Origin: Methanothermobacter sp. MT-2
GTDB taxonomy: Archaea; Methanobacteriota; Methanobacteria; Methanobacteriales; DSM-23052
Reading direction: 5' to 3'
NCBI GenBank assembly: GCA_003584625.1
Contig: AP017647.1
Coordinates: 1,040,603-1,104,602, forward strand
Length of the DNA stretch: 64,000 nt
Below are positions 15,873 through 32,139 of the stretch, piece by piece (positions within the stretch are counted from its first letter, which is position 1; each line of letters begins with the position of its first letter). Below the pieces are notes generated by a model. That model was not told the origin of the DNA. It was given only the letters and a program-made list of their open reading frames with translations, and searched no databases. A program made the position numbers and the translations under genes.

Positions 15873-16787
15873 CTAGCATAGCCATTCTTTGACATTATCT
15901 AAGGCTTTGTTAATACTTGTTACTTTGTCACTGAATGTGTCTTTTATTTCTTCTTCATTTGCAAATATTCCGGATCTTATACCCACACAGTAATCTTCGA
16001 TGATATCGTTGAATTCTGTAAGGACTTCGTTTAAAAGATCTATTTTTATGTTATTTTCGAAATCCATGTCGAGTGCATTTAAGAATATGGGGGTTCCCGC
16101 CTTTTGCTTTGTGACTATTACAAATTTGGGGGTTAGATCATCTAACAATCTTGCCCTTTTTGAGCCTCCATCGATACTTTTGAGAGAATCTAAAAAATAG
16201 CTTATTCTCATTGCTTTTTCTTCATTATCAATAACTGGTTCCATGTTATAATTTAGCTCATCTACTATGGAGCCAATTGAACTGGCGTCGATAACTATGG
16301 TTCCTCTCATGAAATTAAACGTGTTAACTTCTACTTTAACGAGATCACCGCCTTCTTGCCCCTCTTTTTTCCTTGTTAACATGTCACTATTGCCATTCCA
16401 TGGGAAAATACTTATAAGTGGCGAAACTTTAACTGGAGACCATCTTCTAAGAGCCATTTTTCCTTTACCTTTCTCTGCTTCCATGAATCCGAAAATATCG
16501 AGGTCTGGATGTCTTTTAATAATTTCTCGGTATCTTTCTTGGGGATCCTTGGAATCAGTTTCTATTATATATTCACCATTTTTATCAAGTTTTGTTAGGT
16601 CCATCCCCAGTTGGTTCATGGTCTCTTTGAGATAATATCGTAAAGCTTGTCCAGATACATAAGGGTAATAATTTCCTTGGTAATCCTGCACTTTCTTTAA
16701 GACTATTAAATTTCCAGGGTTTTCACTACTATTCAAATTGTCTATGTTTACTTTTGTGATGTATCCTATATTTGCAAATTTTCTCAT
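15873..16787 (-). CDS. cas7: Cascade backbone subunit Cas7 (Cst2/DevR family)
   Basis: 304 residues. Cas7 polymerises along the crRNA spacer. The N-terminus ANIGYITKVNIDNLNSSENPGN and YYPYVSGQALRYYLKETM match the Cst2/DevR Cas7 group used by TNEAP-type I-B systems. ATG 16787 is preceded by a near-perfect GGAGGTG site; an upstream ATG at 16844 would overlap cas8 needlessly. The start is 2 nt from the cas8 stop. Confidence 0.93.
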   Translation of the reverse strand: MRKFANIGYITKVNIDNLNSSENPGNLIVLKKVQDYQGNYYPYVSGQALRYYLKETMNQLGMDLTKLDKNGEYIIETDSKDPQERYREIIKRHPDLDIFGFMEAEKGKGKMALRRWSPVKVSPLISIFPWNGNSDMLTRKKEGQEGGDLVKVEVNTFNFMRGTIVIDASSIGSIVDELNYNMEPVIDNEEKAMRISYFLDSLKSIDGGSKRARLLDDLTPKFVIVTKQKAGTPIFLNALDMDFENNIKIDLLNEVLTEFNDIIEDYCVGIRSGIFANEEEIKDTFSDKVTSINKALDNVKEWLC

Positions 16788-16788
16788 T

Positions 16789-18468
16789 TTAAGCACCTCC
16801 TTTAGTTTTGGCGTATTTTGTTGACAGGTACTTTTGTATTGCATATATTGCCAAATAATTGCGTATCAGAGTTATATTCTTTTTGTCTTGCGACTTTTGG
16901 AGAATTCTTTTTATCAAGGAAAAATATGTTTCATCTTTCCCTTTAGGTTTCGAACTCCAAATTGCGCCTGCTTTTTCTTTTACTATCTCATATTCTAAAT
17001 CCTTGAAAAATTCTGTTAGACCTTCCATGTTTCCTATTTCCCTTATAGAATATAGTATGGATTTATTGTCTGTTTCTCCTGCGAAATATCCTATTCGGTC
17101 CCCTACTAACATGCATATTTCATGGATTTCTTTTAATTCATTCATTCCAGTTACCTCCAAATATTTTTCAAAAAATTCGAAAAGAAGTTGTGAATTGAGA
17201 GTTGAAGGATTGTTGATAGAAAGATTATTATAAGAAAGATCCATTAAAACAGGGTCAATAGGCAAACTATATAATATATTTTTGGATAGTTCCTCACGTG
17301 GTAAATTTTTGGTCTTAGAATCTTTCATGCCTTTATATGATGCATAATTAATGAGAGAATATAAAAAAGGACGTCCATTGTTTGTAATCAAGTCTTTGAG
17401 TTCATCAAAAAACTTGATTATATATGACATTCTGTTATAATTTTTCAAATCATCAACGCCCCTTGAATTTACAGTAAAATAGAATATGTTCAAGAGTTTA
17501 AGTTCGTCTCTTTCTAAAATTTCTGATTTAATTTTATAAAGAAGTAAAAGTAAAGTTGAATAAATATCAGTTGTGAAAAAGTCCTTATCCTCTATGAAAT
17601 TAGTTTTGATATTCCTTTTAATGTTCTCTTTATACTCCGAATCTATTAGGAGAACATTTTTTATTTTATATAAAAGTGGAAGTGAAGGGGCTGAAATTAT
17701 AAAGAGGTTATTGTTGAGGAAATAATTGTCCATCATTCCATATCTATATATAAGATCGCACATGAAACATATTGGCATATCCTTTTTGTTTCTATGGTCC
17801 CTGAATGATGGGAGGGTATCCCCAGTTCCAAAATCAAAGATTAGGTTTGTGGATAATATTGAAAAAGTTTTTTCCTTATTGGAATCATCAATGTATCTTG
17901 AATAGTCGAATCCACAAAGAATACACCTTTCCCCCTTGAGAAGTTTTTTTATTCTTCCAGAGATATTTTCCCCAAGCCTTTGAGGTTTTAGATAAACATT
18001 AACTTTTGACTGCTTTCCATATTGCAATTTACCGCTTACATTTTTGTCAGATTGCAATTTTAGGATCTCTTCTTCTTTTTTAAGTTCCTCCAACTTACTT
18101 TTTGGAACATCAACTCTTGGGAGTAGATCTTTTGTTCTTTCTGATCGTTGAAGAAATGGTTTAACATTTAATTTAGGTCCTATAATCACCTTATCCTTTT
18201 CAGGATCATAATATGGTTTATAATTTTTCGTTTCTTCAAATACTCTTGCATAATAGAAACTTCTCAAAATGAAATATATTTCCTCTAAATCCTTTCTATA
18301 ACCTGTAAAATTCAAATTTAAACTATTTAAACTTATTTCGGAATCTTTATACTTCAAATTGTTATCTTCTAATTTTTTAAACTCTTTGTGTCTTTCCATT
18401 TCTGAAAAAATATTAACAAGACCATTATCATATAAAAAGTCTCTTTTTTCAAAATTTAAACTTAGCAT
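16789..18468 (-). CDS. cas8: Cascade large subunit Cas8 (Cst1/CXXC-CXXC type, I-B)
   Basis: 559 residues. The large Cascade subunit recognises the PAM and recruits Cas3. It carries two paired cysteines, CILC (182-185) and CFMC (234-237), the feature that names the Cst1 (CXXC-CXXC) family and marks the TNEAP branch of type I-B. Start ATG 18468 overlaps the cas6 stop and follows GGAAGTGATG; an upstream ATG at 18531 lies inside cas6. Beyond the zinc-binding-like region the sequence is poorly conserved, as usual for Cas8. Confidence 0.92.
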   Translation of the reverse strand: MLSLNFEKRDFLYDNGLVNIFSEMERHKEFKKLEDNNLKYKDSEISLNSLNLNFTGYRKDLEEIYFILRSFYYARVFEETKNYKPYYDPEKDKVIIGPKLNVKPFLQRSERTKDLLPRVDVPKSKLEELKKEEEILKLQSDKNVSGKLQYGKQSKVNVYLKPQRLGENISGRIKKLLKGERCILCGFDYSRYIDDSNKEKTFSILSTNLIFDFGTGDTLPSFRDHRNKKDMPICFMCDLIYRYGMMDNYFLNNNLFIISAPSLPLLYKIKNVLLIDSEYKENIKRNIKTNFIEDKDFFTTDIYSTLLLLLYKIKSEILERDELKLLNIFYFTVNSRGVDDLKNYNRMSYIIKFFDELKDLITNNGRPFLYSLINYASYKGMKDSKTKNLPREELSKNILYSLPIDPVLMDLSYNNLSINNPSTLNSQLLFEFFEKYLEVTGMNELKEIHEICMLVGDRIGYFAGETDNKSILYSIREIGNMEGLTEFFKDLEYEIVKEKAGAIWSSKPKGKDETYFSLIKRILQKSQDKKNITLIRNYLAIYAIQKYLSTKYAKTKGGA

Positions 18469-19175
18469 TTCATCACTTCCCTTGTATTTAACATTCCAAA
18501 GCCTAGTGAGTTTTTTTCTCCGAGTCCACAATCTAAAATGAATCGGTAGAACTTTTTATTTTCCATGTTAAATTTCTCGAGATTCTTCCAGAGCGTGCCT
18601 ATAATTATAAACATTTTTCCTCCTTTTTTTATTCTTACAGCCACTTCACGGTTAAATTCAAATTTATCGAAAATGTTCCCATCAAAATAATAGTTTTCAT
18701 CATAGAAGGCGTTGTATTTTTTAAGAGCGTTTTCTTTTAGCCTGTCTAAAAAAAATTGAAAATCATGTGCCTTTTTGATTGAATAATAAATATTTTTTCT
18801 ATTATTTTTGTACAAGACAATGGGAGTGGTTGTTATAAAACTCCTTTTTAATCTTGGCTTAAACACTTTTACTGAGTCTATTTCTATGGGGTATTTGCCA
18901 ATGTAATATTTTTTTGGTTTTTTTAACTGTTTTTCAATTTCTCTTATGATTCTAGGATTTGGTGATGAAATTATCAAATTTTTTATTTCATCTGTTATAA
19001 AATCTGAAACAGGAAAAATATTGGAGAAGCAGAAATATTTAAACCCCCATGTATTGTGATAATGGCTATAATTGCTATTTTTCAGCAATGAATAAACGAA
19101 GCCTTGAAGTGTGTAATTGTTTATCTCATAATATTCAAAATCTTCCATGGGTTTGAACTTAAGCAATAATCGCAT
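18462..19175 (-). CDS. cas6: crRNA-processing endoribonuclease Cas6
   Basis: 237 residues, first gene of the cas operon. Cas6 cuts the pre-crRNA at the base of each repeat and leaves the 8-nt handle. The Cas6 signature is the C-terminal Gly-rich loop CGLGEKNSLGFGMLN; NYTLQGFVYSLL near the N-terminus fits the first RAMP domain. Start ATG 19175 has GAGGTAATAAA upstream. It overlaps the cas8 start by 7 bp. Confidence 0.94.
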   Translation of the reverse strand: MRLLLKFKPMEDFEYYEINNYTLQGFVYSLLKNSNYSHYHNTWGFKYFCFSNIFPVSDFITDEIKNLIISSPNPRIIREIEKQLKKPKKYYIGKYPIEIDSVKVFKPRLKRSFITTTPIVLYKNNRKNIYYSIKKAHDFQFFLDRLKENALKKYNAFYDENYYFDGNIFDKFEFNREVAVRIKKGGKMFIIIGTLWKNLEKFNMENKKFYRFILDCGLGEKNSLGFGMLNTREVMKC

Positions 19176-20323: not shown

Positions 20324-21262
20324 TTATGTTTCTGTTATTTTGTTTCCTGTGTATTTTATGAATACATCTTCTAGTGTTGGATGTTCCAGTTCTACTGATC
20401 TTATGTTGAAATTGTTTTGTGTTGCGAAGTTCACTATCTCCGGTATGAGGTTTTCACCCCTCTCTACTAACAATTTCACTATATCTTGTGTGTTGTAAGC
20501 TTCTTTCACCCCAGGTAATCCTTGGACTTTCTCTACAAATTCCCTGGGCCTTTCTACCTTTACTTTTATTGTGTCTGCTTTTAGTTCTCTTTTGAGTTTT
20601 GCTGGTGTGTCTGCTTTTATGATTTTTCCACGGTTCATTATGGCTACTTTGTCGCAGAGTTTGTCGGCTTCTTCCATATAGTGTGTTGTGAGTAGTACTG
20701 TTACCTTTTCTTCTCTGTTGAGTTGTTTTATGTATTTCCAGATGCTTTCGCGTGTCTGGGGATCCAAGCCTAGTGTTGGCTCATCTAGGAATAGGACCCT
20801 TGGGTGGTGTATGAGTCCTCTTCCTATTTCTAGTCTGCGTTTCATGCCGCCTGAGTATGTTTTAACGTATTCGTCGGCTTTTTCTCCGAGGGCTATCAGT
20901 TCTAGCACTTCCTCTATCCTTTTTTCCCTTATTCTCTTGGGGACTCCGTATAATGCTGCGTGCATTTCTAGGTGTTCTCTTCCTGTTAGCATGTCATCGA
21001 GTGCCCTGGATTGGAATACTATGCCTATGGATGCTCTTACCTTCTCTGGTTCCTTGATGACGTCGTGTCCGTTCACTTTCGCCGTGCCGCTTGTTGGCTT
21101 GAGTATTGTGCACAACATTGATATTAGGGTTGTTTTACCGGCCCCGTTGGGTCCTAGTATCGCGTAGATGTCCTTCTCTGGTACTTTCAAGTCTACTTTG
21201 TCCACTGCTGTGAAGTTGTCATATTTTTTGGTTATTTTTTCTGTTTCGATGATGTAATCCAT
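20324..21262 (-). CDS. ABC exporter ATP-binding protein (DrrA-like)
   Basis: 312 residues. Walker A GPNGAGKTT, signature YSGGMKRRLEIG, Walker B VLFLDEPTLGLDP and the H-loop LLTTHYMEEAD are all present, followed by a C-terminal regulatory domain typical of DrrA/NatA ATPases. Start ATG 21262 is preceded by GGGGGTGG; sequence further upstream is open but lacks coding character. It pairs with the downstream permease and is divergent from the kaiC-like gene. Confidence 0.94.
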   Translation of the reverse strand: MDYIIETEKITKKYDNFTAVDKVDLKVPEKDIYAILGPNGAGKTTLISMLCTILKPTSGTAKVNGHDVIKEPEKVRASIGIVFQSRALDDMLTGREHLEMHAALYGVPKRIREKRIEEVLELIALGEKADEYVKTYSGGMKRRLEIGRGLIHHPRVLFLDEPTLGLDPQTRESIWKYIKQLNREEKVTVLLTTHYMEEADKLCDKVAIMNRGKIIKADTPAKLKRELKADTIKVKVERPREFVEKVQGLPGVKEAYNTQDIVKLLVERGENLIPEIVNFATQNNFNIRSVELEHPTLEDVFIKYTGNKITET

Positions 21263-21395
21263 GGCCACCCCCCGGAGTGTTAAAACTATCCTCTTTTTTT
21301 TGTTCCCTATGGGGATTATTCTATCAGAAAGATTTATTATGAATTGTTGGTAATAACTTTTTTTAGTTGGTCTTTCACTTTGGGGGTGGATTTTT

Positions 21396-22790
21396 ATGAG
21401 AGAGTCTCCTAGGCTTGTTGATAAGACTCCGACTGGTATTTGGGGTGTTGATATTATTACCAGGGGTGGTTTGCCTCGTGGCCGTAATACTCTTGTTTTT
21501 GGCGGTCCTGGTACGGGTAAAACGTTTTTTGCCATGGAGTTTCTGGTTAATGGTGCTAGTGTTTATGATGAGTCTGGTGTGATGGTAAGTTTTGAAGAGA
21601 GTGAGGATAATATTATTGAAAATTTCAGATCTGATGATTTGCTCAGGGAGCTTATCAGGGAGAATAGGATTTTTATAGAGGATTTTTCTTCTACTAACGG
21701 TTTTGAGAGTGGTGATTATAGTTTAGAGGCTTTGTTCATGCGTCTTGATGATGCTATAAAGAGGGTGGGTGCTAAAAGGATAGTGCTTGACAAGGTCGAT
21801 AACCTATTTTCACACTTTGAAAAGAAAGCGATCATAAGGTCCGAGCTTTTACAACTTATAGAATGGTTGAATAGCAGGGGACTTACAAGTGTGTTTACAA
21901 CTGGTGAAAATCCTTATGGTGGGGCGGCCCATGGCCTTGAGGAGTATGTATCAGATTGTGTTATCCATCTTAAACATCGTTATAAGGATCATATTGGCAC
22001 CCGGTATATGACAATAAAAAAGTATAGGGGTTCTGAGCATGGTTTGAACGAGTATCCGATGCTCATAAATTCAAAGGGTTTGTCATTGTTCCCTATAACA
22101 TCTCTTAGACTTGATTATACTGTGAGTCGTAGGATTGTGTCAAGTGGTATCCCTGAACTTGACAATATACTTGGAGGCGGATTTTATCAGTGGTCGTCTG
22201 TGCTTATCTCAGGGACTAGTGGGACTGGTAAAACAAGTTTTGTGGCCAAATTTGCCTATGAAGCCTGTGAGAGGGGTGAAAGGTGTCTTTTATTTGCTAA
22301 TGAGGAGCCTGCGGATCAGATAATCCGTAACATGGCCTCTGTTGGGATAGATCTTGAAAAGTTTAGTAGTCACAATCTCCTGATCCATTCTGAAAGACCC
22401 ACTACATTGGGCCTAGAAGCTCATTTGACGGCTATGCAGGATCTTGTACGTGAATTCGAACCAGACCATGTTATAATAGATCCTATATCCTCGCTTACAG
22501 AGGCCGGTTTTGGTGTGAAAGACCTTTTTGTAAGGTTCACAGATTTCTTGAAGAATCGTAAGATAACCTCTATCTTAACATACCTTACAGAAGGTGGTTC
22601 GCCCTTGACAACTACAGAAATACACTTGTCCTCTCTCATAGATACTTGGGTTATACTCCAACAAGTAGAAAAAGGGGGATATTATGCTAATATTTTAAGG
22701 GTGCTTAAAAGTCGCGGCCTTAAACATTCCAAAAAACCTGTAGAATTCAAATTAACCAGTAAGGGTATAAAGATTTTGGGGGGAGAGTAA
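21396..22790 (+). CDS. Two-domain KaiC-family ATPase
   Basis: 464 residues with two RecA/KaiC domains. CI has Walker A GGPGTGKT (36-43) and the catalytic Glu pair in VSFEES (67-68). CII has GTSGTGKT (273-280), FANEEP (303-304) and IIDPISSL. The full double-domain layout is that of cyanobacterial KaiC. The CII stretch TEIHLSSLIDTWVILQ aligns with the KaiC phosphorylation loop, with Ser412-Ser413 at the place of S431/T432. ATG 21396 has gggggtgga upstream. A KaiB gene follows after 3 bp and a histidine kinase overlaps that gene. KaiA is absent, as in all non-cyanobacterial sets. Confidence 0.92.
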   Translation: MRESPRLVDKTPTGIWGVDIITRGGLPRGRNTLVFGGPGTGKTFFAMEFLVNGASVYDESGVMVSFEESEDNIIENFRSDDLLRELIRENRIFIEDFSSTNGFESGDYSLEALFMRLDDAIKRVGAKRIVLDKVDNLFSHFEKKAIIRSELLQLIEWLNSRGLTSVFTTGENPYGGAAHGLEEYVSDCVIHLKHRYKDHIGTRYMTIKKYRGSEHGLNEYPMLINSKGLSLFPITSLRLDYTVSRRIVSSGIPELDNILGGGFYQWSSVLISGTSGTGKTSFVAKFAYEACERGERCLLFANEEPADQIIRNMASVGIDLEKFSSHNLLIHSERPTTLGLEAHLTAMQDLVREFEPDHVIIDPISSLTEAGFGVKDLFVRFTDFLKNRKITSILTYLTEGGSPLTTTEIHLSSLIDTWVILQQVEKGGYYANILRVLKSRGLKHSKKPVEFKLTSKGIKILGGE

Positions 22791-22793
22791 GTT

Positions 22794-23057
22794 TTGGATG
22801 AGGTAATCCTAAGATTATATGTGACTCGAAAAAATCCTTATGCAAAGGCAGCTATCCAAACCCTCAATCAACTCCAGGATAGGGTGAATATTAAACTTGA
22901 GATTGTGGATGTTAGTGAAAATCCGGATTTGGCCCGTGAGAATCATCTTATCGCCATACCCACCCTTGAAAGGATAAAACCCGAGCCTAGAAGGAGGCCT
23001 ATAGGTGATCTTTCCGATACTAAGGCGCTCTTAAAATTTATAGGGTGTCAACTTTGA
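22794..23057 (+). CDS. KaiB-like protein
   Basis: 87 residues, full length for KaiB. Signature features are the thioredoxin-like strand LRLYVTRKNPYAKAAIQTLNQL, IVDVSENPDLARENHLIAIPTL, and the terminal RRPIGDLSDTKALLKFI, which resembles the RRIIGDLS motif of KaiB. In cyanobacteria KaiB switches fold and binds KaiC CI; here the partner is presumably the adjacent KaiC. TTG start at 22794 follows the kaiC GGGGAGAG segment, and its stop overlaps the start of the histidine kinase, so translation is probably coupled. Confidence 0.88.
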   Translation: MDEVILRLYVTRKNPYAKAAIQTLNQLQDRVNIKLEIVDVSENPDLARENHLIAIPTLERIKPEPRRRPIGDLSDTKALLKFIGCQL

Positions 23058-24997
23058 AAGGGAACGCTAGATCATTAATAAAGGACATGAAAGTCCATGA
23101 CCACATCTGTTTAATTTATGAAGATGAAAGAGAATGGGAATCCACTATCATACCATTCCTAGTAGAAGGATTAAAAGGTAATGATAAATGTATTTATATA
23201 ACTGACAGGCATAAGAGCGAGACCATAAAAAAACTTCTCAAAAAGAGAGGATTCGACCCTGAAAAGCTTAAAGGGCAATTTGAAATATTATCAGAGGATG
23301 AAGCATATACCCGTGGCGGATCCTTCGACCCTGATGCCATGATAAAACTCCTAGAAAAGGAAACAGAAAAAGCCCTAGATGAAGGTTATTCCGCCCTCCG
23401 GGTCACTGGAGAGATGACCTGGATTTTGAAGGGTAAGCCTGGGAGTGAAAAGCTGATAGAATATGAGGCTAAACTTAACAGGTTCTTTCCAAAGGCAGAG
23501 TGCTTGGCTATTTGTCAATATGAAAGGTCTGCTTTTGAACCAGAAATCCTTAAAGGGGTTATAATGACCCATCCTATCCTAATATGGAAGGGTAAAATTT
23601 ACAGGAATTTCTATTATATACCTCCCAGGATTTTTCTTGAAGGCGATCCCGGCCGTGCAGAGGTTGAAAATTGGCTTAGGAATATAAGACGTGAAAATGA
23701 GTTTATAGAATCTGTTGAAATGTTCACAAGATTATTTAAGAGTTTTATTGCTAATGTTCCGGCTATTGTGTCTGTTAAAGATTCTGATTTAAGGTATTTC
23801 CTCGTGAACGATAAATTTTGCAGGTTCGCTGGGAAAAAAGAATCCGAAATACTCGGCAAAACCGTCAATGAAATATTTAACGGGGAAACAGCAGCCATAT
23901 TTGGAGATTTGGATGAAATACCATTAAAAGGTGATGATATAGCCATTGAAAGGAAAATCAAGGGCAGATATTATCATATACGTAAGTTTCCCGTGGAGAT
24001 ACCCATCGGTAAAAAAGGTGTGGCATCCATAATAATGGATATAACTGAAAGTAAAAAATTTGAAGAAAAACTAAGTAAATTGACGAAAAATTTCATCAAC
24101 ATCGTTGATAACAGTCCAGAGAGCATATTCATCGTTAACAAAACAGGGAAAGTATACTATGCAAACCACCAAGCCCTAAAATACTTTGGATGGGAAAAAA
24201 GTGAAATCATAGGAGAAAATATAGGAATGCCAATAAAACCCAACATCACAGAAGAAATCCAAACCATAGATGCAAATGGCAACCTGAAAACCGCCGAAAT
24301 AAGAACCGCCAAAACATACTGGGAAGACGAAGAATGCACCCTAATATCCCTACGCGACATAACAAAAATCAAAGAATATGAAAAATCCCTCAAAAAAGCC
24401 CTAAAAGAAAAAGACGCACTCCTCCTAGAACTACACCACCGCGTCAAAAACAACCTCCAACTCATAATAAGCCTCATAAACCTCCAAGAAAAACAATTCC
24501 AAAAAGAAGACAGAAAACTACTCAAAGAAACAACAAACAGGATAAGAGCAATTGCACGAGTCCATGAAAAAATCTACCAATCAGAAGACCTAACCTCCAT
24601 AAACCTCAAAGATTACCTAAAAGACATCATCTCAGAACTAAAAGCAACATACAAACTCCCAAAAATAAAATTCAACTGCCAAATCCAAGACATAAAACTC
24701 AACATAAACCAGGCCATCCCCTGCGGACTTATAATAAACGAAGCCCTTACAAACTCCATGAAATACGCTTTCCCAGACAAGAAAGGGACAATCACAATAA
24801 AAGCATACAAAAGTGGAGATTCCTTAAATCTTATCATAGCCGATGATGGTGTCGGATTCCCAGAAGGATTCAAACCAGAAGAATGTGAAGGTATGGGTAT
24901 GAGAATAATCTACACCCTAACAAGACAACTTGACGGTGAAATAAAAATAAAAGGAGAAAAAGGGGTTAAAATCAAACTCAAATTTCCATACCATTGA
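23054..24997 (+). CDS. MEDS-PAS-PAS sensor histidine kinase
   Basis: 647 residues in four parts: a MEDS (methanogen/methylotroph DcmR sensory) domain to about residue 195 (HDHICLIYEDEREW), two PAS domains (about 230-335 and 345-440), a HisKA_2 dimerisation helix with LHHRVKNNLQLIISL near residue 462, and a C-terminal HATPase with NEALTNSMKYAF and DDGVGFPEGF. No membrane segment, so it is a cytosolic sensor. The TTGA overlap with the kaiB stop and AGGGTG upstream favour TTG 23054; GTG 23045 is the alternative. No response regulator is adjacent. The + strand turns strongly A/C-rich from about 24,060 to 24,780, inside the gene. Confidence 0.92.
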   Translation: MKGNARSLIKDMKVHDHICLIYEDEREWESTIIPFLVEGLKGNDKCIYITDRHKSETIKKLLKKRGFDPEKLKGQFEILSEDEAYTRGGSFDPDAMIKLLEKETEKALDEGYSALRVTGEMTWILKGKPGSEKLIEYEAKLNRFFPKAECLAICQYERSAFEPEILKGVIMTHPILIWKGKIYRNFYYIPPRIFLEGDPGRAEVENWLRNIRRENEFIESVEMFTRLFKSFIANVPAIVSVKDSDLRYFLVNDKFCRFAGKKESEILGKTVNEIFNGETAAIFGDLDEIPLKGDDIAIERKIKGRYYHIRKFPVEIPIGKKGVASIIMDITESKKFEEKLSKLTKNFINIVDNSPESIFIVNKTGKVYYANHQALKYFGWEKSEIIGENIGMPIKPNITEEIQTIDANGNLKTAEIRTAKTYWEDEECTLISLRDITKIKEYEKSLKKALKEKDALLLELHHRVKNNLQLIISLINLQEKQFQKEDRKLLKETTNRIRAIARVHEKIYQSEDLTSINLKDYLKDIISELKATYKLPKIKFNCQIQDIKLNINQAIPCGLIINEALTNSMKYAFPDKKGTITIKAYKSGDSLNLIIADDGVGFPEGFKPEECEGMGMRIIYTLTRQLDGEIKIKGEKGVKIKLKFPYH

Positions 24998-25010
24998 GGG
25001 GCTGAAAATA

Positions 25011-26357
25011 ATGATATTTGAGATAATAAAATCCGAGGGAATATCACACAACTCCTATTTTTTAGGATCAGAAGGCGAAGCCGCTATCATAGACCCTAGA
25101 AGAGACATTGACATCTACCTAAAACTTGCAAGAAAACATGATATAAGCATCCGTTACATATTCGAAACCCACAGAAACGAAGATTATACCATAGGCTCCC
25201 TAGAACTTGCAAAATATGTTGACGCCGAAATACTACACGGAAGCAAACTAAACTTCAAATACGGGACCAAAGTAATCGAAGGAGACACATTCAAACTAGG
25301 CTCCCTAGAACTTGAAGTCTTAGAGACTCCAGGGCATACATATGAGAGCATATCCATCCTCGTGAGGGATAAAACCACAGACAAACCCATGATAATATTT
25401 GTTGGTGATGTGCTCTTCCCAGGAGAAGTTGGAAGAGTCGACTTTTTTGGGAAAGAGAAAATACCTGAAACCGCAAGTCTGCTCTATGAGAGCATACATG
25501 AAAAAATCTTACCCTTAGGTGATCATGTTATACTCTGCCCTGCCCATGGCGCAGGTTCCATTTGCGGCGCCCAGATAAACGACCAAGACCTCACAACCAT
25601 AGGATATGAAAAAATAACAAATCCACTCTTAAAATTAGATAAAGAAAGCTTCATAGAACATAAAAAGAAAGAAAAACTTTACACTCCACCATACTTCAAG
25701 AGAATGGAAAAAAACAACCTCGAAGGAGCCCCACTAGAAAACCCGCACCTAGAACCCCTAAATGTCACAGAATTCAATGAGATGATAAAAGAAGGGGCCC
25801 AACTGGTGGATGTTAGGAATCCGACAAGTTTCTGCGGAGGTCACATCCCAGGTAGCTTGAATATTTGGAGTGGTGGTTTCGCCGCATTCGCAGGATACTT
25901 CCTAGACTATGATAATCCAATAATCATAGTAGATGAGGATGGATTAAATGATCCTGTGAGAAGATCCCTTATAAGACTGGGATACGATAACAAGTATGGT
26001 TATCTCCAGGGTGGTTTCCCAACATGGTATATTTCCGGGATGGAATGTGAAAGTCTAGAGGCATGGACTGTAGACCAGCTAAAATCCCAAGTCGATGATG
26101 GTGATTTCATCCTTCTCGATGTTAGAAAACATGCGGATCGTGAGAAATTTTATATAGAAGGTTCCAGGCATTGTTGGCTCGGTGACATCCCAGAAAACCT
26201 GGAAAACATACCTGATAATGTGGTTGTATATTGCGATTCAGGTTATAAGTCAACTATAGCAGCAAGCCTGCTTAAAATGGAGGGATATGATGTGAAAACT
26301 GTCCTTGGAGGGATAACCGCCTGGATAAAGAAAGGTTATCCCATCATACAAGGATAA
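25011..26357 (+). CDS. Metallo-beta-lactamase-fold/double rhodanese protein with degenerate metal site
   Basis: 448 residues. An N-terminal MBL domain (about 1-220) resembles persulfide dioxygenases, followed by two rhodanese domains. The family motif THxHxDH reads THRNEDY here, so the second and third ligand positions are not His, while ETPGHT, GDVLFPG and CPAHGAGS still provide His and Asp residues. Rhodanese 1 has VDEDG where the active Cys belongs and is probably inactive; rhodanese 2 has CDSGYKS with Cys. It starts 13 nt after the kinase, behind a GAGGGGCTG site, and may belong to the Kai operon. A role in sulfane-sulfur handling is inferred only. Confidence 0.88.
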   Translation: MIFEIIKSEGISHNSYFLGSEGEAAIIDPRRDIDIYLKLARKHDISIRYIFETHRNEDYTIGSLELAKYVDAEILHGSKLNFKYGTKVIEGDTFKLGSLELEVLETPGHTYESISILVRDKTTDKPMIIFVGDVLFPGEVGRVDFFGKEKIPETASLLYESIHEKILPLGDHVILCPAHGAGSICGAQINDQDLTTIGYEKITNPLLKLDKESFIEHKKKEKLYTPPYFKRMEKNNLEGAPLENPHLEPLNVTEFNEMIKEGAQLVDVRNPTSFCGGHIPGSLNIWSGGFAAFAGYFLDYDNPIIIVDEDGLNDPVRRSLIRLGYDNKYGYLQGGFPTWYISGMECESLEAWTVDQLKSQVDDGDFILLDVRKHADREKFYIEGSRHCWLGDIPENLENIPDNVVVYCDSGYKSTIAASLLKMEGYDVKTVLGGITAWIKKGYPIIQG

Positions 26358-26376: not shown

Positions 26377-26853
26377 ATGGGGATTGTTAAAATACCTTTA
26401 ATGACAAAGGAAGAATATGATGAGTTTATAGGGGAGAAATTTATCAGTAGGATAGCCTTTAGTGGAGAATATCCATATATAGCACCATTCCTTTATGTGT
26501 TTGATGGTGAACACCTCTACTTTTTGTCAACTAAATATGGCCGTAAAATAGAACTTTTAAAGGACAATCCATATGTTGCAGTTGAAATAGAAGAGTTCGA
26601 ACCAGACCTTTCAAGTTATAAGTTTGTAACCCTTCAGGGCCAGATAGTCCAAGTTACAGATGAGGATGAAAAGAAGAGGGTAAGGGGGATGTTTGCGGAT
26701 ATGATCAAGGAAAAAAATCTTTCTAAGAATGTGCTTAAGGCTTTGGGTCATTCTCCAGAAGATCCTCTGGCATGTATTGTTAAAATGGAGAGATCCTATG
26801 TCTGGAAACTCGTAGATGTTGTTGATATAATCGGTATAAAAAGTGGAAAATAA
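26377..26853 (+). CDS. Pyridoxamine-5'-phosphate-oxidase-related flavin-binding protein
   Basis: 158 residues with a split-barrel FMN-binding fold: the N-terminal FISRIAFSGEYPYIAPFLYVFDGEHLYFLS, the ALGHSPEDPLACIVKME segment, and KIELLKDNPYVAVEIEEF are typical of this family (COG3467). GGAGGTTTAGG precedes ATG 26377. It lies 19 nt behind the MBL-rhodanese gene, so both are likely co-transcribed. The family binds FMN, F420 or heme; which one applies cannot be seen. Confidence 0.86.
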   Translation: MGIVKIPLMTKEEYDEFIGEKFISRIAFSGEYPYIAPFLYVFDGEHLYFLSTKYGRKIELLKDNPYVAVEIEEFEPDLSSYKFVTLQGQIVQVTDEDEKKRVRGMFADMIKEKNLSKNVLKALGHSPEDPLACIVKMERSYVWKLVDVVDIIGIKSGK

Positions 26854-31041: not shown

Positions 31042-32139
31042 TTGGGTAAGATAAAAATCGCTATTATAGGCGTGGGGAATTGTACAAGCTCTTTAATCCA
31101 AGGAATATACTATTATAGTGAGAAGGATGAAAAAGATGCCATAGGATTAATGCACTGGGACATAGGCGGCTACAAACCCAGTGACATAGAAGTAGTAGCC
31201 GCATTTGACATCGACAAGAGAAAAGTGGGGAAAGATTTGAGCGAAGCAATATTCGCCCCTCCAAATTGCACAAAAATATTCTGTGAAAACATACCATGGA
31301 TGGACGTCAAGGTCTCAATGGGGCCAGTGCTCGATGGTGTGGCACCCCACATGAAAGAATATGATGAAAAATACACCTTTTCAGTTGCAGACAAGGAACC
31401 AGCAGATGTTGTGGAAGTCCTAGAAGACAGCGGAGCCGAAATACTCTTAAATTATCTTCCAGTCGGCTCTGAGGAAGCCACACGCTACTATGCTGAATGC
31501 GCGCTCAAAGCAGGGGTTGCATTCATAAATAACATGCCAGTATTCATCGCAAGCAACCCAACCTGGGCTTCACGCTTCGAAAAAGCAGGCCTTCCCATAA
31601 TCGGGGATGATATAAAAGCCCAGATAGGAGCCACCATAACACATAGGACCTTGACACAGTTGTTCAAAAACAGGGGTGTTAAGTTAGATAGAACATACCA
31701 GTTAAATACTGGTGGGAACACTGATTTCCTCAACATGCTAAATCGTAGCCGACTCGATTCAAAGAAAAAATCAAAGACAGAGGCCGTGCAATCCATCCTA
31801 GGCGATGAAAGACTAGACCCAGAAAACATACATATAGGACCAAGTGACTATGTACCATGGCAGAAAGACAACAAGGTATGTTATCTGCGCATGGAAGGCA
31901 GAATCTTTGGTGATGTTCCAATGAACCTTGAACTCCGACTCAGTGTTGAAGATTCACCCAACTCTGCCGGTTGCGTGATAGATGCTATAAGATGTTGTAA
32001 GTTAGCCCTCCAAAGAGGGATTGCAGGTCCCTTAACATCTATATCAGCTTATATGATGAAACACCCACCAATACAATATCCTGATGAGGAAGCAGCCAAG
32101 CTAGTTGATAAGTTCATCAGAGGAGAAATTGAAAGATGA
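31042..32139 (+). CDS. ino1: Inositol-1-phosphate synthase
   Basis: 365 residues. An NAD-dependent isomerase-type reaction turns glucose-6-phosphate into inositol-1-phosphate for archaetidylinositol lipids and di-inositol-phosphate solutes. [16 protein letters not shown] is the Rossmann N-terminus; [38 protein letters not shown] and [17 protein letters not shown] are the synthase motifs. The start is TTG 31042 behind AAGGTGTT. It stands alone with a 298-bp upstream region that contains the candidate structured RNA. Confidence 0.93.

Follow-up and report, generated by a model that had tools for sequence, protein, structure and literature searches.

A three-gene unit in a methanogen

Why do organisms that do not live by light retain KaiB and KaiC? 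This open question is raised by the window analysed here, a 64,000-nucleotide stretch of contig AP017647.1 deposited as Methanothermobacter sp. MT-2 (order Methanobacteriales), in which kaiC, kaiB and the gene for a MEDS-PAS-PAS-HisKA_2 kinase form one tightly packed three-gene unit (21396-24997, + strand). The module is a member of the KaiC2/KaiB families and is neither a KaiABC clock nor a SasA system. By analogy, it would most likely work like the KaiBC switch of Rhodobacter, coupled to a kinase. The explanation favoured here, at somewhat less than an even chance, is a three-protein switch that depends on the ATP/ADP ratio and on KaiB and is read by the kinase, reporting energy state rather than time. 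The core genes are as follows.

21396..22790, + strand: kaiC, KaiC2-type, 464 amino acids (aa); open reading frame (ORF) with Pfam and NCBIfam matches
22794..23057, + strand: kaiB, 87 aa, TTG start; ORF with Pfam match
23045..24997, + strand: cytosolic sensor kinase, 650 aa; ORF with domain scan

These three ORFs had been recognized in an initial annotation made from the letters alone, and the domain scores rule out chance for their identities. As described there, a KaiB with the RRPIGDLSD motif begins 3 bp past kaiC and the kinase gene overlaps kaiB, by 13 bp from a GTG start at 23045 (TTG at 23054 is an alternative start). The host was correctly taken to be a methanogen, as McrA is encoded in its genome, and the absence of KaiA was borne out genome-wide: no PF07688 match was found, with a positive S. 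elongatus control. The case is small and genetically clean: the complete genome, one contig of 1,522,738 bases (1.52 Mb), offers a single kaiB copy, one kinase and only two receiver proteins.

KaiC and KaiB

KaiC scored 345 bits against the Pfam KaiC/ATPase family across two domains and 588 bits against NCBIfam NF006799 (cut-off 408). The CI domain has the Walker A motif GGPGTGKT from residue 36 and catalytic Glu 67/68, and the CII domain has its Walker A motif from residue 272 and Glu 303/304. The predicted phosphosites Ser412/Ser413, together with Trp418, align to Ser413/Ser414/Trp419 of Rhodobacter KaiC, whose structures (8db3/8dba) are the closest solved ones to this protein. The serine pair was invariant across 18 sequences, and all catalytic motifs and both phosphosites are intact. 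Two adjacent serines are a published mark of KaiC2 (PMC5520375). Phylogenetic analysis covered the window clade, 80 related KaiC, two cyanobacterial KaiC1 and two other Methanoperedens KaiC, with KaiC3 outside the sample. The window KaiC clade (support 100/100) fell within the KaiC2 set; the branch leading to it is long (1.21) and its exact position unsure. A 100/98 branch set the cyanobacterial KaiC1 apart from the KaiC2 set. Judged by its sequence, this KaiC belongs to the KaiC2 type, with two domains, two serines and a place among KaiC2.

The most striking feature of KaiC is its end. It had been annotated as a full two-domain protein, which holds for CI and CII but not for the C-terminus: the protein stops at residue 464, before the A-loop, and both the A-loop and the coiled-coil tail are missing. 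Only 4-8 residues follow the KaiC core in the window clade, scored in eight genomes in which the end of kaiC was assembled (two of these on frameshifted genes), versus a median of 103 in the 80 relatives (minimum 10). No tail is concealed in another frame, because kaiB begins immediately after kaiC. The A-loop and extended coiled-coil tail are predominant in KaiC2, typical of it rather than required (PMC10076222). In Rhodobacter the coiled coil of KaiC joins two hexamers, phosphorylation follows the ATP/ADP ratio, and the tail speeds ADP-driven dephosphorylation; removal of the coil alone slows dephosphorylation, and removal of the A-loop from Synechococcus KaiC leads to hyperphosphorylation (PMC10076222). 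From these published deletions and the absence of both elements here, the tail-less KaiC would be expected to act as a constitutive autokinase with a weak intrinsic reset. An A-loop-less KaiC is a direct test of whether KaiBC switching requires the tail.

KaiB scored 77.4 bits against PF07689 (cut-off 27) and has all 11 residues that are invariant across 34 KaiB. Its AlphaFold2 model (predicted local distance difference test, pLDDT, 78) has the thioredoxin-like, fold-switched topology, although such a model is silent on which fold dominates in solution. The best PDB match was fold-switched KaiB on KaiC CI (5jwr, template modelling score 0.82), and further top matches were Rhodobacter KaiB in complex with KaiC and Legionella KaiB. 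Domain score, conserved residues and fold all place the protein in the KaiB family.

The kinase and its MEDS domain

The kinase consists of a MEDS domain (residues 19-177; 165.7 bits), two PAS domains (~237-337 and ~352-420), HisKA_2 (462-536; 90.3 bits) and HATPase_c (561-648; 40.9 bits). It has the features of a HisKA_2 histidine kinase: an HRxKN H-box with the phospho-His at about residue 465, an N box at 565, G boxes at 600 and 616, and the HATPase domain. Its N-terminus is the MEDS domain, and the KaiB-like thioredoxin domain found at the N-terminus of SasA is not present on it.

Related loci have a different kinase. Of 80 related kaiC2 loci, 75 contain kaiB and 53 have a kinase ORF downstream of kaiB, yet MEDS was found in none of the 52 such kinases scanned. 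The N-terminal segment RLxEAEETLxAIRxGEVDALVV...VFTLxGADxxYR is carried by a protein next to kaiB, in most cases the downstream kinase, at 68 of these 75 loci, and by no protein of the window clade. The segment occurs in many phyla, gave no separate family in a Pfam scan of the kinases, and may be a docking part of KaiC-linked kinases. A strict coupling between loss of the KaiC tail and loss of this segment was considered and rejected, because in a metagenome-assembled genome of Chromatiaceae (L093) KaiC2 is also tail-less, with 10 residues left, but the kinase retains the usual segment.

MEDS-PAS-HisKA_2 kinases without kaiB are found in other Methanobacteriales and align over their full length (35-37%). 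Since they exist elsewhere in the order, the simplest history would be that KaiC-KaiB came to be associated with one of the order's own kinase families. The MEDS domain itself may be KaiC-like: profile comparison with hhalign gave a probability of 88% (E 3e-6), but over 57 columns only, and an unrelated control, MEDS against the KaiB profile, gave no match (0.3%). PMC5847659 counts MEDS among the inactivated KaiC domains, and the title of a reference cited there calls it a ligand-sensing domain.

Only two REC-domain proteins are encoded genome-wide, REC-PAS-GAF and REC-PAS-MetOD1-KaiC, and neither lies near the locus, as the initial annotation had observed for response regulators; nine HATPase_c matches were found. 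In sister genomes with inspected loci, two neighbouring genes encode REC-PAS-MetOD1 and a single-domain KaiC separately. The fused protein has 668 aa (L032:5195-7201, - strand, equal to G000:C1 about 539.2-541.2 kb) and an intact Walker A motif. The available text of PMC5847659 reports KaiC-REC fusions only from Methanosarcinaceae, and REC-PAS-MetOD1-KaiC is not among the architectures tabulated in that part.

The direction of signalling could be the reverse of the one favoured here. MEDS and PAS would then sense a metabolite (a C1 or hydrocarbon derivative, or redox), and the kinase would act on, or parallel to, a KaiC-KaiB effector. This is consistent with the description of MEDS as ligand-sensing, with the kaiB-less kinases of other Methanobacteriales and with the persistence of kaiC-kaiB minus the kinase in one Methanothermobacter genome (G016). 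Against it, KaiC has no REC domain and the locus no cognate response regulator. Moreover, the recurrence of the kaiC2-kaiB-kinase order in many phyla, with varied sensors, fits a shared KaiC/KaiB signal equally well or better. Neither direction is proven, and an input role for the kinase is considered unlikely.

Conservation, loss and exchange

Conservation was assessed among 153 genomes of the phylum. Real KaiB was found in 10 of them, one as a fragment, all within two genera: the window genus, which has four genomes in all, and neighbouring Methanothermobacter, which has eight. We take the neighbouring family to be Methanothermobacter, with the window genome in an adjoining family of its own. 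Other genera of Methanobacteriales gave weak KaiB matches, of about 20-25 bits over 33-39 residues in frames of 138-184 aa; as these do not reach the cut-off, they are left out of the count. The kaiC-kaiB-kinase order occurred nowhere beyond the two genera in this sample. Within them the order is kept, so that the test named beforehand in the initial annotation, conservation in relatives, came out in its favour. The shared arrangement is a divergent ABC transporter, kaiC-kaiB-kinase, MBL-rhodanese, pyridoxamine 5'-phosphate oxidase-like protein and, on the opposite strand, UbiA.

All four genomes of the window genus contain the module; it is cut by a contig end in G003, and the kinase is frameshifted in G001. 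The latter was not counted as decay, as adjacent genes in G001 are also broken and an assembly error is likely. In Methanothermobacter the module is intact in two genomes, G014 and G018, and broken in the other six, each differently and at the same site.

G008, G012: one-base deletions at two different kaiC positions; that of G008, in a G-run, could be a sequencing error
G004: kaiC and half of kaiB lost; kinase with an in-frame stop
G016: kaiCB kept; a deletion fuses the first ~60 kinase residues to the rhodanese gene
G006: kaiC stump fused to the last ~30 kinase residues
G010: kinase C-terminus alone remains

Most likely, the common ancestor of both genera had the whole module and it was later lost repeatedly. 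The different breakages show the module to be dispensable, though it is under purifying selection where intact. In intact pairs the ratio of nonsynonymous to synonymous substitution rates (dN/dS) was 0.11-0.14 for KaiC, 0.18 for the kinase and 0.20-0.44 for KaiB, and 0.04-0.15 for the neighbours. Further comparison revealed that ~20,550-25,300 (~4.8 kb) is 97-99% identical in nucleotides to the sister species G002, versus about 80% outside; downstream, G002 and G001 are ~90% alike. This is a recent recombination tract that ends inside the ABC and MBL genes. Because it contains all three module genes whole, they were exchanged together. Intact and naturally broken copies of the module thus occupy the same site in sister species.

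These losses bear on two further explanations. One would see an acquired KaiC2 system being lost, a decaying or marginal remnant with little present function. The deletions, stops or frameshifts in six of eight Methanothermobacter genomes, all different, and the long KaiC branch point that way. However, intact pairs have dN/dS values clearly under 1, the active-site motifs are all intact, the three genes are kept throughout the window genus (with G001 and G003 as noted) and a recent exchange left the cassette whole, which makes a remnant quite unlikely. The other would be co-location only, with KaiC-KaiB and the kinase co-transcribed but serving separate pathways. The losses do strike different genes (G004 lost kaiC and retained the kinase; G016 the converse), and the kinase belongs to a family native to the order and has no N-terminal segment of the usual KaiC-linked kind. 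Yet the genes overlap in the window genus, the association recurs across many phyla, and the kinase left without kaiC in G004 also has an in-frame stop. Mere co-location is judged rather improbable.

A proposed energy-state switch

In the favoured energy-state switch, a KaiC2-type double-ring ATPase and autokinase would bind ATP or ADP and could phosphorylate Ser412/Ser413. Thioredoxin-fold KaiB would bind the KaiC CI ring in one nucleotide or phosphorylation state. The kinase, with its putatively KaiC-like MEDS domain, would read the state of KaiC or KaiB/KaiC together with a PAS signal, and would hand phosphate to one of the two REC proteins, of which one includes an additional KaiC ATPase as a fusion partner. 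Reset of the tail-less KaiC would depend on KaiB and ADP; ATP/ADP-driven phosphorylation with KaiB-assisted reset is a prediction from homology. The genes and their order, the domains and residues, the absent tail, the conservation, the selection and the repeated losses are observed; we infer all the binding and phosphotransfer steps in this scheme, and the signal itself.

Several lines of evidence support the switch: the packed gene order in two genera, the joint exchange, purifying selection, and the intact motifs and phosphosites; the kinship to Rhodobacter KaiC and fold-switched KaiB, and the recurrent kaiC2-kaiB-kinase loci (53/80); and the presence of only two REC proteins, one KaiC-fused, with response regulator and KaiC adjacent in the inspected sister loci. 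With the control tail gone from KaiC, and with a kinase that differs from the KaiC-linked kind, a switch is more likely than a clock. The initial annotation had proposed a minimal timer or energy-state switch with the kinase as reader; comparison with the KaiBC of Rhodobacter makes this plausible, while nothing shows timing.

Other observations weigh against this explanation. No member of this clade is known to have been studied biochemically. The choice of partner response regulator is a guess, as nine HATPase_c matches face two REC proteins. Only two of the eight Methanothermobacter genomes have an unbroken module, and one of the other six (G016) has kaiCB but no kinase; such recurrent breakage means that any role is conditional and that the components may work independently. 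As the coil aids dephosphorylation in Rhodobacter, its absence could impair resetting by ADP. Finally, the likeness of MEDS to KaiC comes from the 57-column match and the class given in PMC5847659, and the single-sequence AlphaFold model of MEDS has a pLDDT of 42.

A bolder version would be a rewired module that gave up both its KaiC tail and the usual KaiC-linked kinase and took on instead a kinase with MEDS as a degenerate KaiC domain. MEDS would either rival the KaiC ring as a binding partner of KaiB or become part of that ring, so that the kinase would sense free KaiB, a mirror image of SasA, whose KaiB-like domain competes for KaiC. Output to the response regulator fused to another KaiC ATPase would make this a KaiC-to-KaiC relay in a non-phototroph. 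We regard this version as very unlikely. A true circadian or hourglass clock keeping about 24-h time, for which homology to clock KaiB/KaiC and to the Rhodobacter KaiBC hourglass could be cited, is unsupported; it was dropped as the leading explanation and is judged extremely improbable, as there is no KaiA, A-loop, tail or SasA-type kinase, and the lineage is one of thermophilic methanogens with no evident daily input and frequent loss in relatives.

Neighbouring genes

The flanking features are as follows.

20324..21262, - strand: ABC transporter ATPase, divergent from kaiC; flank conserved in both genera
21263..21395, no strand: intergenic spacer separating kaiC from the divergently oriented ABC ATPase gene; contains a putative TATA-like element
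about 21333-21340: putative TATA-like element TTTATTAT, picked by eye, also in G001
25011..26357, + strand: MBL-fold protein with two rhodanese domains, 13 bp past the kinase; conserved neighbour
26377..26853, + strand: pyridoxamine 5'-phosphate oxidase-like (flavin-type) protein; conserved neighbour

The domain scan agreed with the first description of the two downstream genes. The suggestion that they hint at a redox or sulfur input proved weak: they remain in genomes that have lost kaiC, kaiB or the kinase, and the recombination tract stops inside the MBL gene. For these reasons they were downgraded as members of the unit, although the MBL-rhodanese gene is probably co-transcribed with the kinase here. 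Its MBL domain has THRNEDY in place of the metal-binding THxHxDH, as seen by eye also in G006, and may not be a normal metallohydrolase. Elsewhere in the window, 15873-19175 contains cas6 and a type I-B Cas7/DevR gene flanking an unassigned 580-aa ORF and adjoins the ABC transporter; in several sister genomes this cas block is diverged or was undetected at the corresponding position. An inositol-3-phosphate synthase-like protein at 31042-32139 scored 471 bits against the mycothiol INO1 model, below its cut-off of 638.

Comparison with known systems

The cyanobacterial KaiABC-SasA-RpaA clock shares KaiB and KaiC homologues and a kinase as possible reader, but differs in having KaiA, the KaiB-like sensor domain of SasA and a KaiC1 on a separate branch, none of which is found here. 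Neither REC protein of the host genome has the architecture of RpaA, though no search was aimed at RpaA itself. The archaeal KaiC/iKaiC signalling proteins share MEDS, listed among them as an inactivated KaiC, and REC and MetOD1 modules (PMC5847659). The bacterial and Methanoperedens kaiC2-kaiB(-kaiB)-kinase loci (n=80) share the gene order, the KaiC2 clade and a kinase downstream of kaiB; they differ in often having two kaiB, a tail of about 100 aa and the EAEETLxAIRxGEVDALVV kinase segment, with no MEDS (0/52). Rhodobacter sphaeroides KaiBC (8db3, 8dba, 8fwi; PMC10076222) shares a KaiC2-type KaiC with paired serine phosphosites and the equivalent Trp, KaiB and the absence of KaiA, and its operon includes a histidine kinase (PMC5520375). 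Unlike the protein described here, its KaiC continues into an A-loop and a coiled-coil tail through which it forms a dodecamer, and the kinase in the window is MEDS-PAS-PAS-HisKA_2.

Archaeal KaiB, including that of Methanothermobacter, and bacterial kaiBC-kinase operons are already known. The presence of kaiB in this same lineage was reported by Schmelling et al. (2017, PMC5520375), who classed Methanothermobacter KaiB nearest KaiB1; the available text of that paper makes no mention of a missing KaiC tail, a MEDS kinase or losses. What is new here is a KaiC that stops before the A-loop together with a MEDS kinase in place of the usual KaiC-linked kinase, a pairing that would supply MEDS, a widespread archaeal domain, with a testable partner.

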